Shown: piece by piece, positions 4,992-10,572 of the stretch
Layout of the letters: the number at the start of each line of letters is the position of its first letter
How positions within the stretch are numbered: position 1 is the first letter of the stretch
Program-made: the position numbers and the translations under genes
DNA from: an uncultured Blautia sp.
GTDB taxonomy: Bacteria > Bacillota > Clostridia > Lachnospirales > Lachnospiraceae
Direction of reading: 5' to 3'
DNA length: 11,083 nucleotides
NCBI GenBank assembly: GCA_900765525.1
Contig: CAAFRY010000280.1
Span: forward strand, 1 to 11,083
Notes under the pieces: generated by a model
What the model was told of the DNA's origin: nothing
Seen by the model: the letters and a program-made list of their open reading frames with translations, nothing else
Database searches by the model: none

Positions 4992-5035
4992 ACCGTCTCT
5001 ATTCTCCGTTTCATTTAATTGGACACTGAATAAAT

Positions 5036-5051
5036 GTCCCCCGGACTTTTT
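5036..5051 (+). terminator. Weak intrinsic terminator after the phosphofructokinase gene
   Basis: GTCC (5036-5039), a CCC loop and GGAC (5043-5046) are followed by TTTTTG, 45 nt after the stop codon. The stem is only 4 bp but GC-rich, and flanking AAA/TTT can extend it past one mismatch. A competing hairpin GGACA/TGTCC (5021-5025, 5035-5039) uses the same bases. No better plus-strand terminator is visible before the convergent PTS operon. Confidence 0.4.
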
Positions 5052-5111
5052 GAGCCGGCAGAACTTTTTCATTGCATAGGAAATCCAAAAAATTTCTTAT
5101 AAAATCAAATC

Positions 5112-5172
5112 AGAGCGGCCCCTCAGGAAATACAGGAAGTTTTCTTCCGTCTATATCCTGAGGGGCCGCTCT
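5112..5172 (-). terminator. Strong terminator of the PTS operon (17-bp stem with nested hairpin)
   Basis: A perfect 17-bp stem pairs 5112-5128 with 5156-5172 (core GCGGCCCCTCAGGA/TCCTGAGGGGCCGC). The 27-nt loop holds a second hairpin, GGAAG-TTTT-CTTCC (5135-5148). On the minus strand the stem is followed by GATTTGATTTTATAAG, a T-rich but imperfect tract, so it should end the operon 20 nt after the EIIB stop codon. On the plus strand CTATGCAAG follows, with no U tract, though the hairpin may still block transcripts coming from the phosphofructokinase side. Confidence 0.85.
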
Positions 5173-5192
5173 CTATGCAAGTTTATCTTCTG

Positions 5193-5465
5193 TTATCTGA
5201 AAAGCTTTTGAAACTCTTCAGCCACAGACATTACCTTTGGTCCGATAACAATGTGGACCTGGTTGGATGCAGGGCGAAAAACTGCCGCTGCTCCAGCTTC
5301 TTTCAATTTACTGTCATCTACAGCCTCCATACTCCTGACCTCTATCCGAAGTCTGGTAATACAGTTATAGAAGCTGAGAATATTCTCTTTCCCTCCTGCC
5401 CCTTCCAGAAAGGCCTGTGCCATTTGCAGGGAATCGGGGCAGGAACTTTTCTTTATATTTTCCAT
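5193..5465 (-). CDS. Stand-alone PTS EIIB domain (glucose family)
   Basis: A single EIIB domain of the glucose/N-acetylglucosamine PTS family. In a complete permease this domain takes phosphate from EIIA on a cysteine and passes it to sugar bound by EIIC. From ATG 5465-5463 the protein has 90 residues: a short basic leader, QAFLEGAGGKENI (17-29), the phosphorylation site NCITRLR (34-40, Cys35) and the C-terminal VHIVIGPKV strand-turn. The domain is complete, but no EIIC or EIIA is fused or adjacent. A TTG at 5480-5478 would give five more residues and overlap the ptsI stop; I prefer the ATG, 11 nt past that stop, although its SD (CGGAA) is weak either way. It is last in the operon after EI, so translational coupling is likely. 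It could serve a permease encoded elsewhere, act on the operon's antiterminator, or be a remnant of a permease; the intact active site argues against decay. Confidence 0.85.
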   Translation of the reverse strand: MENIKKSSCPDSLQMAQAFLEGAGGKENILSFYNCITRLRIEVRSMEAVDDSKLKEAGAAAVFRPASNQVHIVIGPKVMSVAEEFQKLFR

Positions 5466-5476
5466 TTTCCGTTTAC

Positions 5477-7096
5477 TCAATCCATATCCCGGACAATTTT
5501 TCTAAGTCTCAGAATCATAGAAGGCGCCACAGAAAGTTCATCTACTCCCATCTCTACAAAGGTTCTGGTAAGCTCTGTATCAGCCCCCAGCTCTCCGCAG
5601 ATACCGGCCCACTTACCGGCCTTGTGAGCGTTGTCCACTACCATCTGAATCATTCTTAAAATTGCCTTATGATGAGGATTATAGAAGGAATCCAGCTTCT
5701 CATTCTGGCGGTCTATAGCCAGGGTGTACTGGGTCAAATCATTAGTACCAATGCTGAAGAAATCCACATGCTGAGCCAAATCATCGCTGACCATAACGGA
5801 AGCAGGCGTCTCTATCATGATGCCCTCTTCCACATCTTTGTAAGGGGTTCCGGACTGCTCCAGCTCTGCCTTTACTTCCTTCACAATCTCCTTGATTTTC
5901 TCTACCTCTTCCACAGAAGTAATCATAGGATACATAACAGAAATATTTCCATAAACCGCTGCTCTTAACAGGGCTCTCAGCTGAGTTTTAAAGATGTCCG
6001 GCTGGGTCAGACAGATACGGATAGCACGGTATCCAAGAGCCGGATTTTCCTCCTTATCCAGTCCCAGATAATCCGCCTGCTTGTCTGCTCCGATGTCCAG
6101 GGTCCGGATAATTACCTTCTTTCCTGCCATGGTCTGGGCTACCTGCTTATAAACCTGGAACTGCTCTTCCTCGCTGGGCAGTTCATTTCTTCCGATATAC
6201 AGGAACTCACTGCGGAAAAGTCCGATACCGCCGGCATCATTTTCCAGAACATATCCCATATCTCCCACGCTTCCGATGTTTGCGTAGATATTTATTTTTC
6301 TTCCGCTTTTGGTTACATTTTCTTTTCCCTTCAGTTCCAGAAGCAGGCTTCTTTTCTCCTGTTCTTCCTGAATCTTCTGTCTGGCTCTGGTGCGCACTTC
6401 TTCTGTAGGATTGAAGAACACTTCGCCTGTAAAGCCGTCTACTACAGCCTCCATTCCTGTCTGGAGCTGCTCCAAATCCATGGGTACGCCGATAAGGGCA
6501 GGTATGTTCATCATCCTGGCCAAAATAGCCGTATGGGAATTGGTAGAACCATGGACTGTGACAAAGGCTAAAATTTTTTCCTTGTCCATCTGAACCGTTT
6601 CGCTGGGAGATAAATCGTCCGCTACGATAATCACCGGTTCTTCAAATTCCATGTCTGTACCGTCTCCGCCGTAAAGGTTCCGCACCAAACGCTCGGAAAT
6701 ATCTTTTACATCCGCAGCACGGGCCTTCATATAATCGTCGTCCATGCTGGCAAACATCTGAGAAAAGTTATCCCCTGTGGCAGCCACTGCGTACTCTGCA
6801 TTTACCTCCTGGGTCCGGATAATATTTTCAATGGATTCATTATAATCCTCGTCCTCCAGCATCATCTGGTGGACTTCAAAAATAGCGGCGCTGGCCTCTC
6901 CCACTTCTTTCACTGCCTTTTCATACAGTCTCTGAAGCTGAGCCTTAGCCTTCTCCCTGGCCTCCTCTACTCTTTGGATTTCTGTGTCGGGGCTCTCCAC
7001 CTTGACCCGTTTCACCACATAATCGTTTTTTCTCAGAACAGAAATTTTTCCCAGGGCAACACCTTTATATACTGATTTGCCTTTCAGACCTTCCAT
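5477..7096 (-). CDS. ptsI: PTS enzyme I (phosphoenolpyruvate-protein phosphotransferase)
   Basis: Autophosphorylates from PEP and passes the phosphate to HPr, the first step of all PTS sugar uptake; a soluble dimer. The 539-residue protein has the N-terminal domain with the HPr-binding helices (about 35-145), the phosphohistidine site GSTNSHTAILAR (183-194, His188), a linker helix, and the C-terminal PEP-binding barrel with FRSEFLYIGRNELPSEEEQF, the SIGTNDLTQYTLAIDR loop and GICGELGAD, whose Cys500 corresponds to active-site Cys502 of E. coli EI. It is about 30 residues shorter than E. coli or Bacillus EI (570-575), losing only the tail after the SVAPSMILRLR segment; no catalytic motif is affected. 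AAGGGG lies 9 nt before the ATG. It begins 19 nt after the HPr stop and ends just before the EIIB gene, inside one operon. Confidence 0.97.
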   Translation of the reverse strand: MEGLKGKSVYKGVALGKISVLRKNDYVVKRVKVESPDTEIQRVEEAREKAKAQLQRLYEKAVKEVGEASAAIFEVHQMMLEDEDYNESIENIIRTQEVNAEYAVAATGDNFSQMFASMDDDYMKARAADVKDISERLVRNLYGGDGTDMEFEEPVIIVADDLSPSETVQMDKEKILAFVTVHGSTNSHTAILARMMNIPALIGVPMDLEQLQTGMEAVVDGFTGEVFFNPTEEVRTRARQKIQEEQEKRSLLLELKGKENVTKSGRKINIYANIGSVGDMGYVLENDAGGIGLFRSEFLYIGRNELPSEEEQFQVYKQVAQTMAGKKVIIRTLDIGADKQADYLGLDKEENPALGYRAIRICLTQPDIFKTQLRALLRAAVYGNISVMYPMITSVEEVEKIKEIVKEVKAELEQSGTPYKDVEEGIMIETPASVMVSDDLAQHVDFFSIGTNDLTQYTLAIDRQNEKLDSFYNPHHKAILRMIQMVVDNAHKAGKWAGICGELGADTELTRTFVEMGVDELSVAPSMILRLRKIVRDMD

Positions 7097-7115
7097 AATT
7101 TTCTACCCCTTGGTT

Positions 7116-7373
7116 TTACAGATTTGCTTCAAAAAATGCTTTCATAGCCTCTGCTGCAGTATCCTCATCTTCTCCTTCCACAGAAACCTGAACGGTATTT
7201 CCGCACTTTACACCAAGAGACATAATAGCCATCAGCTTTGTAGCAGCCGCAGACTTTCCATCCTTTGTAATAGTAATGGCACTCTGATATTTCTTTGCCT
7301 CTTTTACAAGTACTCCTGCTGGTCTTGCATGGATTCCCAGTTCGTCCTTAATGGTGTAATCAAATGTTTTCAT
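7116..7373 (-). CDS. ptsH: PTS phosphocarrier protein HPr
   Basis: A small soluble carrier moving phosphate from EI to the EIIA domains. The 85 residues include the active site LGIHARPAG (12-20) with His15, and the usual IMSLGV segment (50-55). Aligned without gaps to Bacillus HPr, the regulatory Ser46 (LKSIM) is replaced by Lys46 (ATKLM), so phosphorylation by HPr kinase at the canonical site is not expected; Thr45 is adjacent but shifted by one. A clear SD, GGGAG (7387-7383), lies 9 nt before the ATG. It sits between the antiterminator gene (84-nt gap) and ptsI (19-nt gap). Identity is certain; the regulatory meaning of Lys46 is inference. Confidence 0.96.
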   Translation of the reverse strand: MKTFDYTIKDELGIHARPAGVLVKEAKKYQSAITITKDGKSAAATKLMAIMSLGVKCGNTVQVSVEGEDEDTAAEAMKAFFEANL

Positions 7374-7457
7374 AATAAAAATCTCCCTTCGTGATATAAA
7401 ATTTTTTATGTGCGCCTTTGACGCAATAACCCATATTTCTATGGGATATTTTCTCTG

Positions 7458-8276
7458 CTACACGGCAGCCCGCTGTATGTGGACGGCCAGAAAGCCAATC
7501 TCTTCTCTCTCTATAGCCTTTCCCAGTTGTTCTTCCATATACCTGCAGACCAGAGCGGCAGTTTTTCCTGCCAGAGGATAATTCTCCTCTATAAATTGGT
7601 TTAAATCAATATTGACTCCCTCCCCTGTATCTGCCCTTATGAGGGTATAATACAGGTGGCTCAAAAGCCTGGTACAGGACAGGGAATCCCTTTTCAAAAC
7701 ACAGCCCATTTCCTCTTCAATTAAACTCATACAGTCATCAATAAGCTGTGTGGTCTTCAGTGTTTCCGACACCTGTTCATTGGAAAGACCTGAATGGATA
7801 TGCAGAGTGATAAAACCAACCTCATCCTCTGAAATCCGGTATCCCGTCATCTCCTCTATAATCTCCCTTCCCTTCAGGGCAATAGCATATTCCTTACCGA
7901 ACAATACCTTGATGTCTGGGATAAAGGGATTTGGAATCTGGATATTTTCCTGCTGCTCTCTCTGAACTGCAAAGGCGATATGGTCTGCCATTGGCAGCAG
8001 AATTCCACGGTTTACCGAATCAAAAACCATCTCTGCCTCGTCAATAATCCGACCAGCCGCTTCCAGGTATACCGGCTCTATAATGTTTACTGCGCTTCTG
8101 GCTGAGGACTGTTTTTCTCCTGCCTCCAAAGTATAAACCTTTGCTCCCTGAATTTCTCCAAAGGTTTCTCCTGCCTTCTTGCCAAATCCGATTCCCCTGC
8201 CCAGGAGAATCTGCTCACTGCCCTCATAGCCTGCAAGAATGGCATTGTTATTTAGCACCTTAATAATCTGATACAT
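7458..8276 (-). CDS. licT: BglG/LicT-family PRD transcriptional antiterminator
   Basis: An RNA-binding antiterminator controlled by PTS phosphorylation. Of its 272 residues, about 1-57 form the CAT RNA-binding domain (MYQIIKVLNNNAILA start, GRGIGFGKKAG at 27-37). PRD1 (about 65-170) carries His99 in ADHIAFA and His159 in ITLHIHSG; PRD2 (about 175-272) carries His207 in LLSHLYY and His266 in LAVHIQRA. These four match the regulatory histidines of Bacillus LicT/GlcT/SacT proteins. In that family EIIB-dependent phosphorylation of one PRD inactivates, HPr-dependent phosphorylation of the other can activate, and the active dimer clamps the RAT hairpin. AAGGAG (8290-8285) lies 8 nt before the ATG. 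It is the first gene of the PTS operon, and a RAT/terminator lies in its own leader, so it should be autoregulated and control ptsHI. The symbol denotes family, not orthology; GlcT-like would be equally apt. Confidence 0.92.
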   Translation of the reverse strand: MYQIIKVLNNNAILAGYEGSEQILLGRGIGFGKKAGETFGEIQGAKVYTLEAGEKQSSARSAVNIIEPVYLEAAGRIIDEAEMVFDSVNRGILLPMADHIAFAVQREQQENIQIPNPFIPDIKVLFGKEYAIALKGREIIEEMTGYRISEDEVGFITLHIHSGLSNEQVSETLKTTQLIDDCMSLIEEEMGCVLKRDSLSCTRLLSHLYYTLIRADTGEGVNIDLNQFIEENYPLAGKTAALVCRYMEEQLGKAIEREEIGFLAVHIQRAAV

Positions 8277-8400
8277 GGCCCGGACTCCTTACCTTTTTCT
8301 AATACTAATCTTACCTAATAAGAACCCCTTTTTCAACTAATTCCTGCAAAGCCCTGTACATTTTTCTATGTTCTTTTGGAAGCAAAATATCTTGGTGCAG

Positions 8401-8551
8401 AAAAGAAAAAAAGCATAAACTCATCCGCCGTCATCAAAAAAGCTTTCTTCCAAAAGAAAAGCCCTTTTCCAGAATATCTCCATTGATTTCAGGAAGCATT
8501 CCTGAAAGGAAAACATTCTTTATTTTGATGAACCATTCGGATAGTTTATGC
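8401..8551 (-). terminator. Regulated leader terminator of the PTS operon (overlaps RAT)
   Basis: On the minus strand GCATAAACTATCCG (8551-8538) pairs with CGGATGAGTTTATGC (8427-8413), 14 bp with one bulged G, followed at once by TTTTTTTCTTTT (8412-8401). Inside it a second 9-bp stem pairs TCATCAAAA (8531-8523) with TTTTGATGA (8439-8431), and further in lies a perfect 9-bp hairpin TTTCAGGAA/TTCCTGAAA (8507-8487). The whole makes an unusually large, branched intrinsic terminator 124 nt upstream of the antiterminator gene. Its 5' arm shares bases 8540-8551 with the RAT element, so the two structures exclude each other. It would also stop read-through from the ABC-F gene, which has no clear terminator. 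Confidence 0.75.
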
Positions 8552-8576
8552 CTGCCGTACAGTAACACACTATCTT
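8538..8576 (-). promoter_or_regulatory. RAT ribonucleic antiterminator for a BglG/LicT-type protein
   Basis: Minus-strand RNA from 8574 to 8540 reads GATAG, TG, TGTTACTG, TACG, GCAGGCA, TAAA, CTATC. TGTTACTG-N4-GCAGGCA is the conserved upper half of the RAT hairpins bound by LicT, SacT and BglG. GATAG/CTATC closes the lower stem, and TACG forms the tetraloop. The 3' half is also the 5' arm of the following terminator, the classical antitermination arrangement. Element and cognate protein gene are in the same transcript, so autoregulation is expected. Confidence 0.82.
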
Positions 8577-8601
8577 TCCTGTTTGTCTTTCACTGACATT
8601 A

Positions 8602-8631
8602 ACTATATACTAAAGTAGCCGTTACCGTCAA
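8602..8631 (-). promoter_or_regulatory. Promoter of the licT-ptsH-ptsI-EIIB operon
   Basis: On the minus strand TTGACG (8631-8626), one mismatch from the -35 consensus, is followed after 16 bp by TATATA (8609-8604) or after 18 bp by TATAGT (8607-8602). Initiation near 8595-8598 places the RAT about 20 nt into a leader of roughly 320 nt. This is the only good promoter between the ABC-F stop and the antiterminator gene. Confidence 0.65.
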
Positions 8632-8688
8632 GCTGTGTTTTTTTACTAAGATTCTTTCCAAATTTTGTATATTTTTCACAATAATTTT

Positions 8689-10572
8689 TTATACACTTTT
8701 CTGTGCCTCTATCTGCTCCGCCAAATCCGTCAGATATACCCACCTGTCCATTTTCTCCTCCAAAGCAGCTTCTGCCTCTTCCTTTTCCTTCATAAGCTGG
8801 TTCAGTTTTCCGCTGTTGGTAGCATTGGCCATTATCTCCTCCTCCAGGCTTTGAAGTTTTTCTTCCAGGTCAGCTATATCCTGGTCAATGGTCTCGTACT
8901 CCCGCTGTTCCTTAAAGGTAAATTTCAGTTTTACCTCATGCTGTTTCCAGGAGCCGGAGCTCTGTCCTGTTTTGTTGCTTTCCCCCGGGCTGCCCTGTTT
9001 TTCTCCGGAAACCGCCATTGCATTTCCAGCTTTTTTGGCGTCCGGGAAACTATCTTTTTCCCGGACAGCGTTACTGCTTTTTACCTCTTTTTTATCCTGG
9101 TTTCTTCTCTTTTTTGCCTCCATATAATCGGTATAACCACCTTCGTACTGTATCAGGCCGCCCTTACCGTCAAACTCGAAAATCCGCTCTGCTACATTGT
9201 CCAAAAAGTATCTGTCATGGGATACCGTCAATACAATTCCAGGAAAGGAATTCAGATAATCTTCTAATATGGTCATGGTAGGAATATCCAGATTGTTTCC
9301 TGCCTCGTCCATAATCAGTACGTTGATTTCTCCTGCCAGAACACCCAGCAGGTATAGTCTCCTTTTCTCCCCGCCGGACAGCTTTCCAATAGGGGCATAC
9401 TGCATATCCGGAGTAAAAAGAAAACGTTCCAGCAGTTGGGAAGCGCTGATTCTTCCCTCTCCGGTCTGAATATATTCTGCAATATCCTTCACATAATCAA
9501 TCACTCTCTGATTGTCGTCCATATCCTGTTCTTCCTGGGCAAAATATCCGATTTTTACCGTCTCTCCTATATCAACAGCCCCTGAATCCGGCTCCACCAG
9601 GCCGGCCAGCATCTTCATCAGAGTGGACTTACCACAGCCATTGGGGCCGATAAACCCCACACGCTGATTCTTCAGCACTATATAACTGAAATCCTCTATC
9701 AGCTTCTTCTCTCCATAGCTTTTGCTCACATGATGAAGCTCAATGGTCTTCTTGCCCATCCGAACCTTCCGGCTGTCCAAGGTCAGGACTTCCTCCTTCT
9801 GTACTGCCGGAGTATTTTTCAATGCCTCCAGCCGTTCCAATCTGGCTCTCTGCTTAGTGCTTCTGGCTCTGCAGCCTCTTTTAGCCCATTCCAGTTCCAT
9901 CCGCAGGATGCTCTGGCGTTTTCTCTGGGAGGCCAGTTCCATCTCTTCCCGCTGAGCCTTCAGTTCCAGAAAACCAGAGTAATTGGCCTCATATCCATAC
10001 ATATTGCCACGGCTGATTTCCAGAATCCTGTTGCTCACCTTATCCAGAAAATACCGGTCATGGGTCACCATGAGCAGGGTACCCCGGAAGGCTTTTAAAT
10101 ACTCTTCCAGCCAGGTATTCATCTCCATATCCAGATGATTGGTAGGCTCGTCTAAAAGCAGTACGTCGAAATCCTGAGACAGAATTTTGGCCAGGGCCGC
10201 TCTCCTTCTCTGTCCTCCGGAAAGCTGGGACAAGGGCATCTCAAAATCCCGGATTCCCAGAAGCTCCAGATTGCTCTCCACAAGCCAATCCTTCTCCGGC
10301 TGCCCGGTCAGTGCATAGGAAGCCACCGTGGCTTCCTGAGGAAAGCTGGGATTCTGAGGCATATAAGCCAGCTTCAGATTATTCTGCCGGATTATCTGTC
10401 CTGTATCCGGTTCTTCCAGACCTGCTACCATTTTCAAAAGAGTAGATTTTCCGGTTCCGTTAATTCCTACTATACCGATTTTATCCCCCTGGTGAATCCC
10501 AAAGGAGGCATCTTCAAAAATCATTTTATCCCCGTATAATTTACTGATGTGTTCTATGTTGATGATGTTCAT
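8689..10572 (-). CDS. ABC-F family ATPase (Uup/YfmR type)
   Basis: A soluble protein with two ABC ATPase domains and no membrane segments; ABC-F proteins act on the ribosome, in translation rescue or antibiotic protection. From ATG 10572 it has 627 residues. Domain 1: Walker A GINGTGKST (36-43 region), signature LSGGQRRR (117-124), Walker B with DEPTNHLD (141-148), THDRYFLD. A charged interdomain linker rich in Arg, Lys and Glu (about 205-265) follows. Domain 2: GPNGCGKST (309-317), LSGGEKRR (398-405), DEAGNNLD (422-429), SHDRYFLD. Then come a Lys/Ser-rich low-complexity stretch (about 486-545) and a C-terminal coiled coil (about 556-627), as in Uup and B. subtilis YfmR (about 630). In domain 2 the usual DEPTNDLD is altered though the catalytic Glu is kept. 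An ATG at 10614 would add 14 residues absent from the family; AAAGG 8 nt before 10572 supports the shorter form. Housekeeping is likelier than resistance. Confidence 0.9.
   Translation of the reverse strand: MNIINIEHISKLYGDKMIFEDASFGIHQGDKIGIVGINGTGKSTLLKMVAGLEEPDTGQIIRQNNLKLAYMPQNPSFPQEATVASYALTGQPEKDWLVESNLELLGIRDFEMPLSQLSGGQRRRAALAKILSQDFDVLLLDEPTNHLDMEMNTWLEEYLKAFRGTLLMVTHDRYFLDKVSNRILEISRGNMYGYEANYSGFLELKAQREEMELASQRKRQSILRMELEWAKRGCRARSTKQRARLERLEALKNTPAVQKEEVLTLDSRKVRMGKKTIELHHVSKSYGEKKLIEDFSYIVLKNQRVGFIGPNGCGKSTLMKMLAGLVEPDSGAVDIGETVKIGYFAQEEQDMDDNQRVIDYVKDIAEYIQTGEGRISASQLLERFLFTPDMQYAPIGKLSGGEKRRLYLLGVLAGEINVLIMDEAGNNLDIPTMTILEDYLNSFPGIVLTVSHDRYFLDNVAERIFEFDGKGGLIQYEGGYTDYMEAKKRRNQDKKEVKSSNAVREKDSFPDAKKAGNAMAVSGEKQGSPGESNKTGQSSGSWKQHEVKLKFTFKEQREYETIDQDIADLEEKLQSLEEEIMANATNSGKLNQLMKEKEEAEAALEEKMDRWVYLTDLAEQIEAQKSV

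Follow-up and report, generated by a model that had tools for sequence, protein, structure and literature searches.

A RAT/terminator switch ahead of a GlcT-like antiterminator, HPr, enzyme I and a lone EIIB in Blautia: a possible self-adjusting loop on the core PTS

Gene order and leader of the operon

The window analysed here, a stretch of 11,083 nucleotides from an uncultured Blautia sp., carries on its minus strand a promoter-like pair, a ribonucleic antiterminator (RAT), a terminator, and genes for an antiterminator, HPr, enzyme I (EI) and a stand-alone EIIB, in this order. The features are as follows.

8602..8631, minus strand: promoter-like pair, TTGACG (8631-8626) and TATAGT (8607-8602), with an 18 nt spacer
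8574-8540, minus strand: RAT hairpin (covariance model R1, 52.6 bits, E 2.4e-12)
8401..8552, minus strand: intrinsic terminator, with the 5' arm at 8552-8538, the end of the 3' arm at 8412 and a T-run after it
7458..8276, minus strand: GlcT-like transcription antiterminator, 272 aa, with CAT_RBD, PRD1 and PRD2
7425..7450, minus strand: 26-base hairpin with a GNRA loop, between the antiterminator and HPr genes
7412..7424, minus strand: second, smaller hairpin, adjoining the GNRA-loop hairpin
7116..7373, minus strand: ptsH, encoding HPr with His15 and with Lys at the place of Ser46
5477..7096, minus strand: ptsI, encoding enzyme I
5193..5465, minus strand: stand-alone EIIB domain of the glucose/GlcNAc type, active Cys in CITRLR

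The operon has both ptsH and ptsI, but between 8276 and 5193 the minus strand offers no frame that would encode an EIIC or EIIA, and the operon is not of the ptsGHI type.

The RAT reads TGTTACTG-TACG-GCAGGCA within a closing stem GATAGT/ACTATC, and its GTGTTACTG...CAGGCAT core presumably resembles that of the ptsG RAT. The core has a single match in the window, an exact one, where shuffles predict 0.01 with two mismatches allowed. The terminator has a minimum free energy of -50.8 kcal/mol (z -5.25, none of 200 shuffles as low) and a T-run, TTTTTTTCTTTT, at 8412-8401; the stretch 8631-8401 as a whole folds with z -4.27. An earlier note on this DNA had placed a RAT/terminator switch upstream of genes for the antiterminator, HPr, EI and an EIIB, and the exact RAT match and the z-score of the terminator bear it out. 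The overlap that it described between the RAT and the 5' arm of the terminator is also present, at 13 bases (8552-8540) rather than 12. Because the 5' arm uses these last 13 bases of the RAT, the two structures are mutually exclusive. The terminator fold beats the RAT plus the rest by 9.8 kcal/mol in the window, and it is preferred by 5.0-9.8 kcal/mol in all seven close leaders and by 5.4-16.9 kcal/mol in all five leaders of the sister operons described below, which implies that something must hold the RAT. A search of Rfam, which the same note had suggested, returned no RAT family at a lax threshold (up to E=10), all matches lying far below their gathering scores, and a simple terminator scan limited to loops of 3-8 did not list the long terminator at 8552-8401.

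In an alignment of the leader with those of six relatives, the stem and core of the RAT are invariant, as is most of the 3' arm of the terminator, and the terminator loop varies in sequence and length. Both hexamers of the promoter-like pair, likewise pointed out earlier, are invariant in these seven leaders and readable also in four of the sister operons (L100-L103), although such matches occur at chance frequency in the region (six found in 5000-8800, 6.4 expected). The distance from the RAT core to the start of the antiterminator gene is 154-161 bases in the six relatives, against 291 in the window. The leader of the window (8538-8277, minus strand) is thus longer than those of the relatives by about 130 bases, and its terminator contains extra hairpins. 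A 12-bp repeat, TTCTTTTGGAAG/CTTCCAAAAGAA (8458-8447 and 8382-8371), was considered as a competing hairpin around the 3' arm of the terminator and rejected; its fold has z -0.71, with 42 of 200 shuffles as low, and it lies within the extra leader sequence that the relatives lack.

The GNRA-loop hairpin in the gap between the antiterminator and HPr genes has ten pairs that are identical in all eight aligned loci. Each of the seven close genomes has one copy of it, and the six other genomes searched have none even with up to three mismatches allowed. The smaller hairpin beside it has U-A in place of C-G in L001 and L006, and its covariation over eight related rows is weak (21 of 500 shuffles as high for the score, 255 of 500 for pairs changed on both sides). 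It is a guess that the gap hairpin may set the ratio of HPr and EI to the antiterminator through processing or stabilising of the mRNA.

The same gap bears on another reading of the leader, as a constitutive partial attenuator in which the RAT and terminator are relics and ptsHI is transcribed mainly from a promoter of its own. The gap does contain a weak promoter-like match (7400-7372) besides the conserved hairpin. However, promoter-like matches are at chance level in this region, the 7400-7372 stretch shows little conservation across the aligned gaps outside the ribosome site, and the RAT bases common to the terminator are kept in all seven leaders; we give this reading very little credence.

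At the other end of the operon, a long hairpin (5109-5176) separates the convergent genes for EIIB and phosphofructokinase. It is probably a two-way terminator, and its match to a miRNA model arose by chance. A similar hairpin at 2592-2654 lies between two other convergent genes.

Conservation of the RAT and spread of the operon

Related antiterminators were compared over 48 regions, from which three with a cut leader (L001, L106, L107) and one that repeats L006 (L109) were left out. A script found a RAT with a competing terminator arm in 43 of the remaining 44, with 9-12 of 12 bases of the arm pairing with the 3' end of the RAT in a count that allows G-U and has no shuffle control; in the one left (L115), inspection by eye shows a RAT whose loop is longer. 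In an alignment of 35 chosen RATs, standard pairs fill 94.0% of pair cells, and no slid version exceeds 45.5%. Cells changed on both sides number 28, against 10.8 in shuffles (none of 500 as high). The RAT is a conserved structure with covariation on three of five measures: the number of paired cells, that of cells changed on both sides and the score for covariation surpass every one of the 500 shuffles and every slid version. The other two measures are unremarkable, with 98 of 500 shuffles reaching the number of pairs changed on both sides and 42 of 500 that of further pair types, and related rows may beat such shuffles without any structure. In L100 and L101, breaks or bulges interrupt the lower stem; L102 and L103 read the same way as L101.

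The covariance model R1, built from RATs beside such genes, gave 21 strong hits over 13 genomes, and the next hit has an E-value of 0.68. Twenty of these precede either an antiterminator operon of this type or an EIICBA gene of the same kind, and one lies at a contig edge. Two hits occur in each of the seven close genomes and in G129, and one in each of the other five. In each of the seven close genomes one RAT (RAT1) precedes the antiterminator operon, and the other (RAT2) precedes EIICBA. Given the training set of the model and the 150 first-look candidates scored per genome, the count is not a full census and further RATs may exist.

Looser searches were set aside. RAT-like words with at most one mismatch occur in 25 of 60 family genomes, against six of 60 with a hit in the reversed control, and most of these hits carry the one mismatch, which makes the pattern too loose to use. 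Loose RAT patterns also matched within the L102 antiterminator gene (+73) and within the L118 operon, and these matches were ignored. A comparison of CAT residues 1-57 with RAT columns for co-variation is confounded by descent; A in RAT column 8 co-occurs, by eye, only with His at CAT position 10, and this was not counted as evidence.

Seven named records, six from Blautia and one from an uncultured Firmicutes, gave related loci. The RAT core stands ahead of the antiterminator gene in six of them (five Blautia and the uncultured Firmicutes), L001 beginning inside the RAT. All seven have genes for the antiterminator, HPr and EI in order, and six reach the EIIB, L005 being cut within EI. The antiterminator has a match in 75 of 250 family genomes, only two of which (G001 and G004) reach 76%. 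Of 20 genus genomes, 13 match it (seven at 76-78%, four at 63-67% and two with a best match of 40-41%), and seven have no match. From this spread, the lone-EIIB operon is known only from the group of seven and the window. A mobile origin was considered and dropped, since no match was found in plasmids (near mode) or in viral contigs.

Antiterminator, HPr and the origin of the lone EIIB

The antiterminator has the N-terminal CAT RNA-binding domain (PF03123, 59.9 bits) and the two PRDs (PF00874, 109.7 bits over two stretches) of the BglG/SacY family. All four PRD histidines, H99, H159, H207 and H266, are present in the window, and by position they recur in 44, 38, 43 and 44 of 44 rows, respectively. 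The protein has the conserved histidines, two per PRD, expected of this family, and these four are presumably the phosphosites. Its best PDB match is 3rio, the B. subtilis PtsGHI antiterminator. The protein scores 222 bits against the GlcT equivalog model NF047357 (cut-off 320) and 185 bits against the LicT model NF046042 (cut-off 300). The first score is under its cut-off, and we therefore call the protein GlcT-like rather than GlcT. The earlier description of it as BglG/LicT-type with four PRD histidines holds for the histidines and for the CAT domain and two PRDs, but by score GlcT is the closer of the two types.

The presence of all four histidines and of an HPr encoded next door would also suit a LicT-like control in which HPr~P acts directly on the PRD histidines, the loop reads HPr alone and the EIIB is secondary. 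The closer likeness to GlcT, which is not known to need HPr for its activity, speaks against this, and we find it decidedly improbable.

The HPr encoded in these operons has His15, and by eye the place of Ser46 holds K, R or Q in 23 of 24 rows, the exception being L071 with Ser; one of the rows, L109, is a repeat of L006. In 13 genomes, 30 HPr-like loci were measured, a subset of the HPr matches there, and of these 13 have H15 with K or R46, 11 have E15/S46 (Crh-like) and six have H15/S46. HPr kinase is found in all 13 genomes, and Ser46 is presumably its site. Phosphotransfer and Ser46 signalling appear to be split between proteins, in which case the HPr of the loop would report only the charge of the phosphorelay.

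The earlier note did not mention that this EIIB stands alone as a domain. As in relatives, translation probably begins at ATG 5465, which gives 90 aa, rather than at TTG 5480, from which the active Cys is counted as residue 40. The domain is present with NCITRLR kept in all seven loci, the window among them, that are long enough to tell; L005 breaks off within EI. Searching 5.8 billion proteins gave six clusters at E<=1e-10, all of 90-97 aa and all with CITRLR, one of which (P0006) diverges after the motif. In six of the seven close genomes, the lone EIIB is the only EIIB found in a frame below 456 aa (G261 is cut there). It is under purifying selection (mean pN/pS 0.32), and it evolves faster than its neighbours (antiterminator 0.10, HPr 0.13, EI 0.05), which could indicate a weak function. 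Its best NCBIfam family is NagE (TIGR01998), at 66.5 bits over the B part only, against a cut-off of 553.2 for the model.

Five sister operons (L062 and L100-L103) have the order RAT-antiterminator-HPr-EI-(X)-EIIA-EIICB. They share the order from RAT to EI with the window, and their antiterminators are 59-67% identical to its own, but they keep EIIA and the full permease EIICB where the lineage of the window keeps EIIB only. Two EIICBs were scored, those of L062 and G253, and both pass the NagE cut-off (564 and 614 against 553 bits), which makes these two permeases NagE-type. Four of the sister operons also carry, between the EI and EIIA genes, a protein of 346-354 aa (L100 9963-11006 and the same place in L101-L103), of which the L100 copy, the one tested, has no Pfam or NCBIfam match.

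In a tree of 44 antiterminators with three outgroup rows, the seven lone-EIIB rows form one clade (100/99), which joins the five antiterminator-HPr-EI-(X)-EIIA-EIICB rows (100/99); the branching order within is weak (85/54). The remaining rows comprise one EIIBA-antiterminator-HPr-EI, seven EIICBA-antiterminator-HPr-EI, two EIICBA-EI-antiterminator, five second-copy EIICBA-antiterminator and 17 other EIICBA-antiterminator arrangements. One of the seven EIICBA-antiterminator-HPr-EI rows (L068) has HPr and no recognised EI, so that HPr and EI both directly follow the antiterminator in 19 of the 44. The EIIBA row, L063, has at 5414-6187 an EIIB-EIIA fusion without EIIC ahead of the antiterminator, HPr and EI genes, a second and separate permease-free EII in this family.

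The five B domains from the sister operons share 46-49% identity with the lone EIIB, those of EIICBA 28-41% and those of seven other EIIs 26-36%. A small tree of B domains sets the lone EIIB apart from the EIICBA type (100/100) and places it beside long-branched other EIIs (82/44), not firmly with the NagE B domains. Together, the antiterminator tree, the scores of the sister EIICBs and the identity and family of the EIIB make it likely, if not proven, that EIIA and EIIC were lost from a GlcNAc-permease operon and that the EIIB was left. The claim that the switch serves the core enzymes rather than one sugar permease is true of the present operon, but its relatives suggest a GlcNAc-permease operon that lost its permease.

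Known systems and a proposed circuit

Parts of this arrangement are familiar. B. subtilis glcT sits outside the operon under its control, and nagE is the permease in the nagY-nagE operon; neither nagY-nagE nor sacXY is known to include HPr or EI. Unlike ptsGHI, which has the permease ptsG, the window operon holds its antiterminator inside and has no EIIC or EIIA. The Lachnospiraceae EIICBA-antiterminator(-HPr-EI) operons belong to the same antiterminator clade and RAT class as the window operon, but in them the permease comes before the antiterminator and the RAT lies ahead of the permease gene. B. subtilis GlcT/ptsGHI shares with the window a GlcT-type antiterminator, an antiterminator hairpin opposed to a terminator, and HPr and EI under the switch (PMC8152036). 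The same source gives EII phosphorylation as the off signal, with the permease phosphorylating GlcT when sugar is absent (PMC8152036). Enterococcus faecalis nagY-nagE (nagYE) and B. subtilis sacXY resemble the window in having a RAT ahead of an operon that includes its own antiterminator (PMC9981650); the sacXY operon holds an EIIBC (sacX), whereas the window operon has no permease.

The RAT switch, HPr and EI under GlcT, and self-controlled antiterminator operons are already known singly, and what appears to be new is their combination with a permease-free EIIB. The idea that the switch acts on the antiterminator itself together with HPr, EI and EIIB finds its placement repeated in six further named loci, but its novelty had been overstated in view of ptsGHI, sacXY and nagYE. 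Searches of the open-licence literature, within which few subscription journals fall, turned up no account of such an operon in Blautia or Lachnospiraceae. Passages of PMC8560693, PMC12803351, PMC11321411, PMC4945068, PMC3302838 and PMC10100675 likewise do not deal with one.

Judged from the sequence, the RAT/terminator in the operon is real. Its mechanism, meaning the binding, the phosphorylation by the lone EIIB and the sign and dynamics of the loop, is what we infer from the observed anatomy, conservation, phylogeny and active-site residues. We lean towards a reading in which the RAT switch ahead of the GlcT-like antiterminator, HPr, EI and EIIB takes the lone EIIB as its phosphorylation input and forms a self-adjusting loop on the core PTS. 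We predict that the antiterminator binds the RAT in its own leader and would thereby allow read-through of the whole cluster. Phosphate would pass from PEP to EI, to HPr, to some EIIA domain and on to the lone EIIB; with no EIIA in the operon, the EIIA feeding it must come from another EII, and EIIA domains exist in all 13 genomes searched. When no sugar drains this chain, EIIB~P would phosphorylate PRD1 of the antiterminator, the RAT would not be held and the terminator would stop the transcript. PTS sugars would drain the chain and leave the EIIB dephosphorylated, and the freed antiterminator would bind the RAT, so that more antiterminator, HPr, EI and EIIB would be made until the chain is recharged. 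The net effect would be a positive autoregulation that depends on how far the relay formed by the products is charged. The lone EIIB is taken as the phosphate donor of the off-switch because of the analogy with GlcT, which is phosphorylated by its permease without sugar; it is most likely what is left of a GlcNAc-type EIICB once in the operon, kept as a signal input.

In a broader and more tentative form, which we regard as possible rather than probable, the pared-down permease operon would be a homeostat of the general PTS that makes its own antiterminator, HPr and EI. The EIIB would report the charge of the whole relay and not one sugar, the Ser46-less HPr would be free of input from HPr kinase, and the gap hairpin would set the amount of HPr and EI per regulator. 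In our judgement, how the amounts of the common PTS enzymes are set is less studied than the control of single permeases. If true, the proposal would describe a compact feedback circuit in common gut bacteria, one that controls HPr and EI by way of an antiterminator plus an EIIB that lacks its permease. It would also be a clear example of how one domain of a transporter can come to serve solely as the input of a signal.

Other EIIs, and the EIICBA encoded beside the second antiterminator above all, could instead be the donor. All seven close genomes have an EIICBA with the related RAT2 ahead of it, together with a second antiterminator, and this glucose-type EIICBA might phosphorylate the antiterminator while the RAT switch works as set out above, the lone EIIB then being a relic or serving another EIIC in trans. 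The fast evolution of the lone EIIB would agree with this. Against it, the EIIB keeps its active site (seven of seven loci, six of six clusters) and its place at the end of the operon under purifying selection, and in G001, the one genome matched, the glucose-type EIICs each have their own EIIB and the sole EIIC without one belongs to a fructose EII. We consider this alternative unlikely, and the lone EIIB stays our preferred donor.

The EIICBA and second antiterminator genes adjoin in five of the close genomes and lie on separate contigs in G254 and G258. The EIICBA of L058, the one tested, has the glucose type as its best family, under the cut-off of that family, and the second antiterminators of the close genomes group with L063 (98/91). 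The resemblance of RAT2 to RAT1 means that the two antiterminators may cross-act. In L058-L061 and L108, the second antiterminator is paired with EIICBA and a shorter RAT2 (GTGTAACTGAAAAGGCAT).
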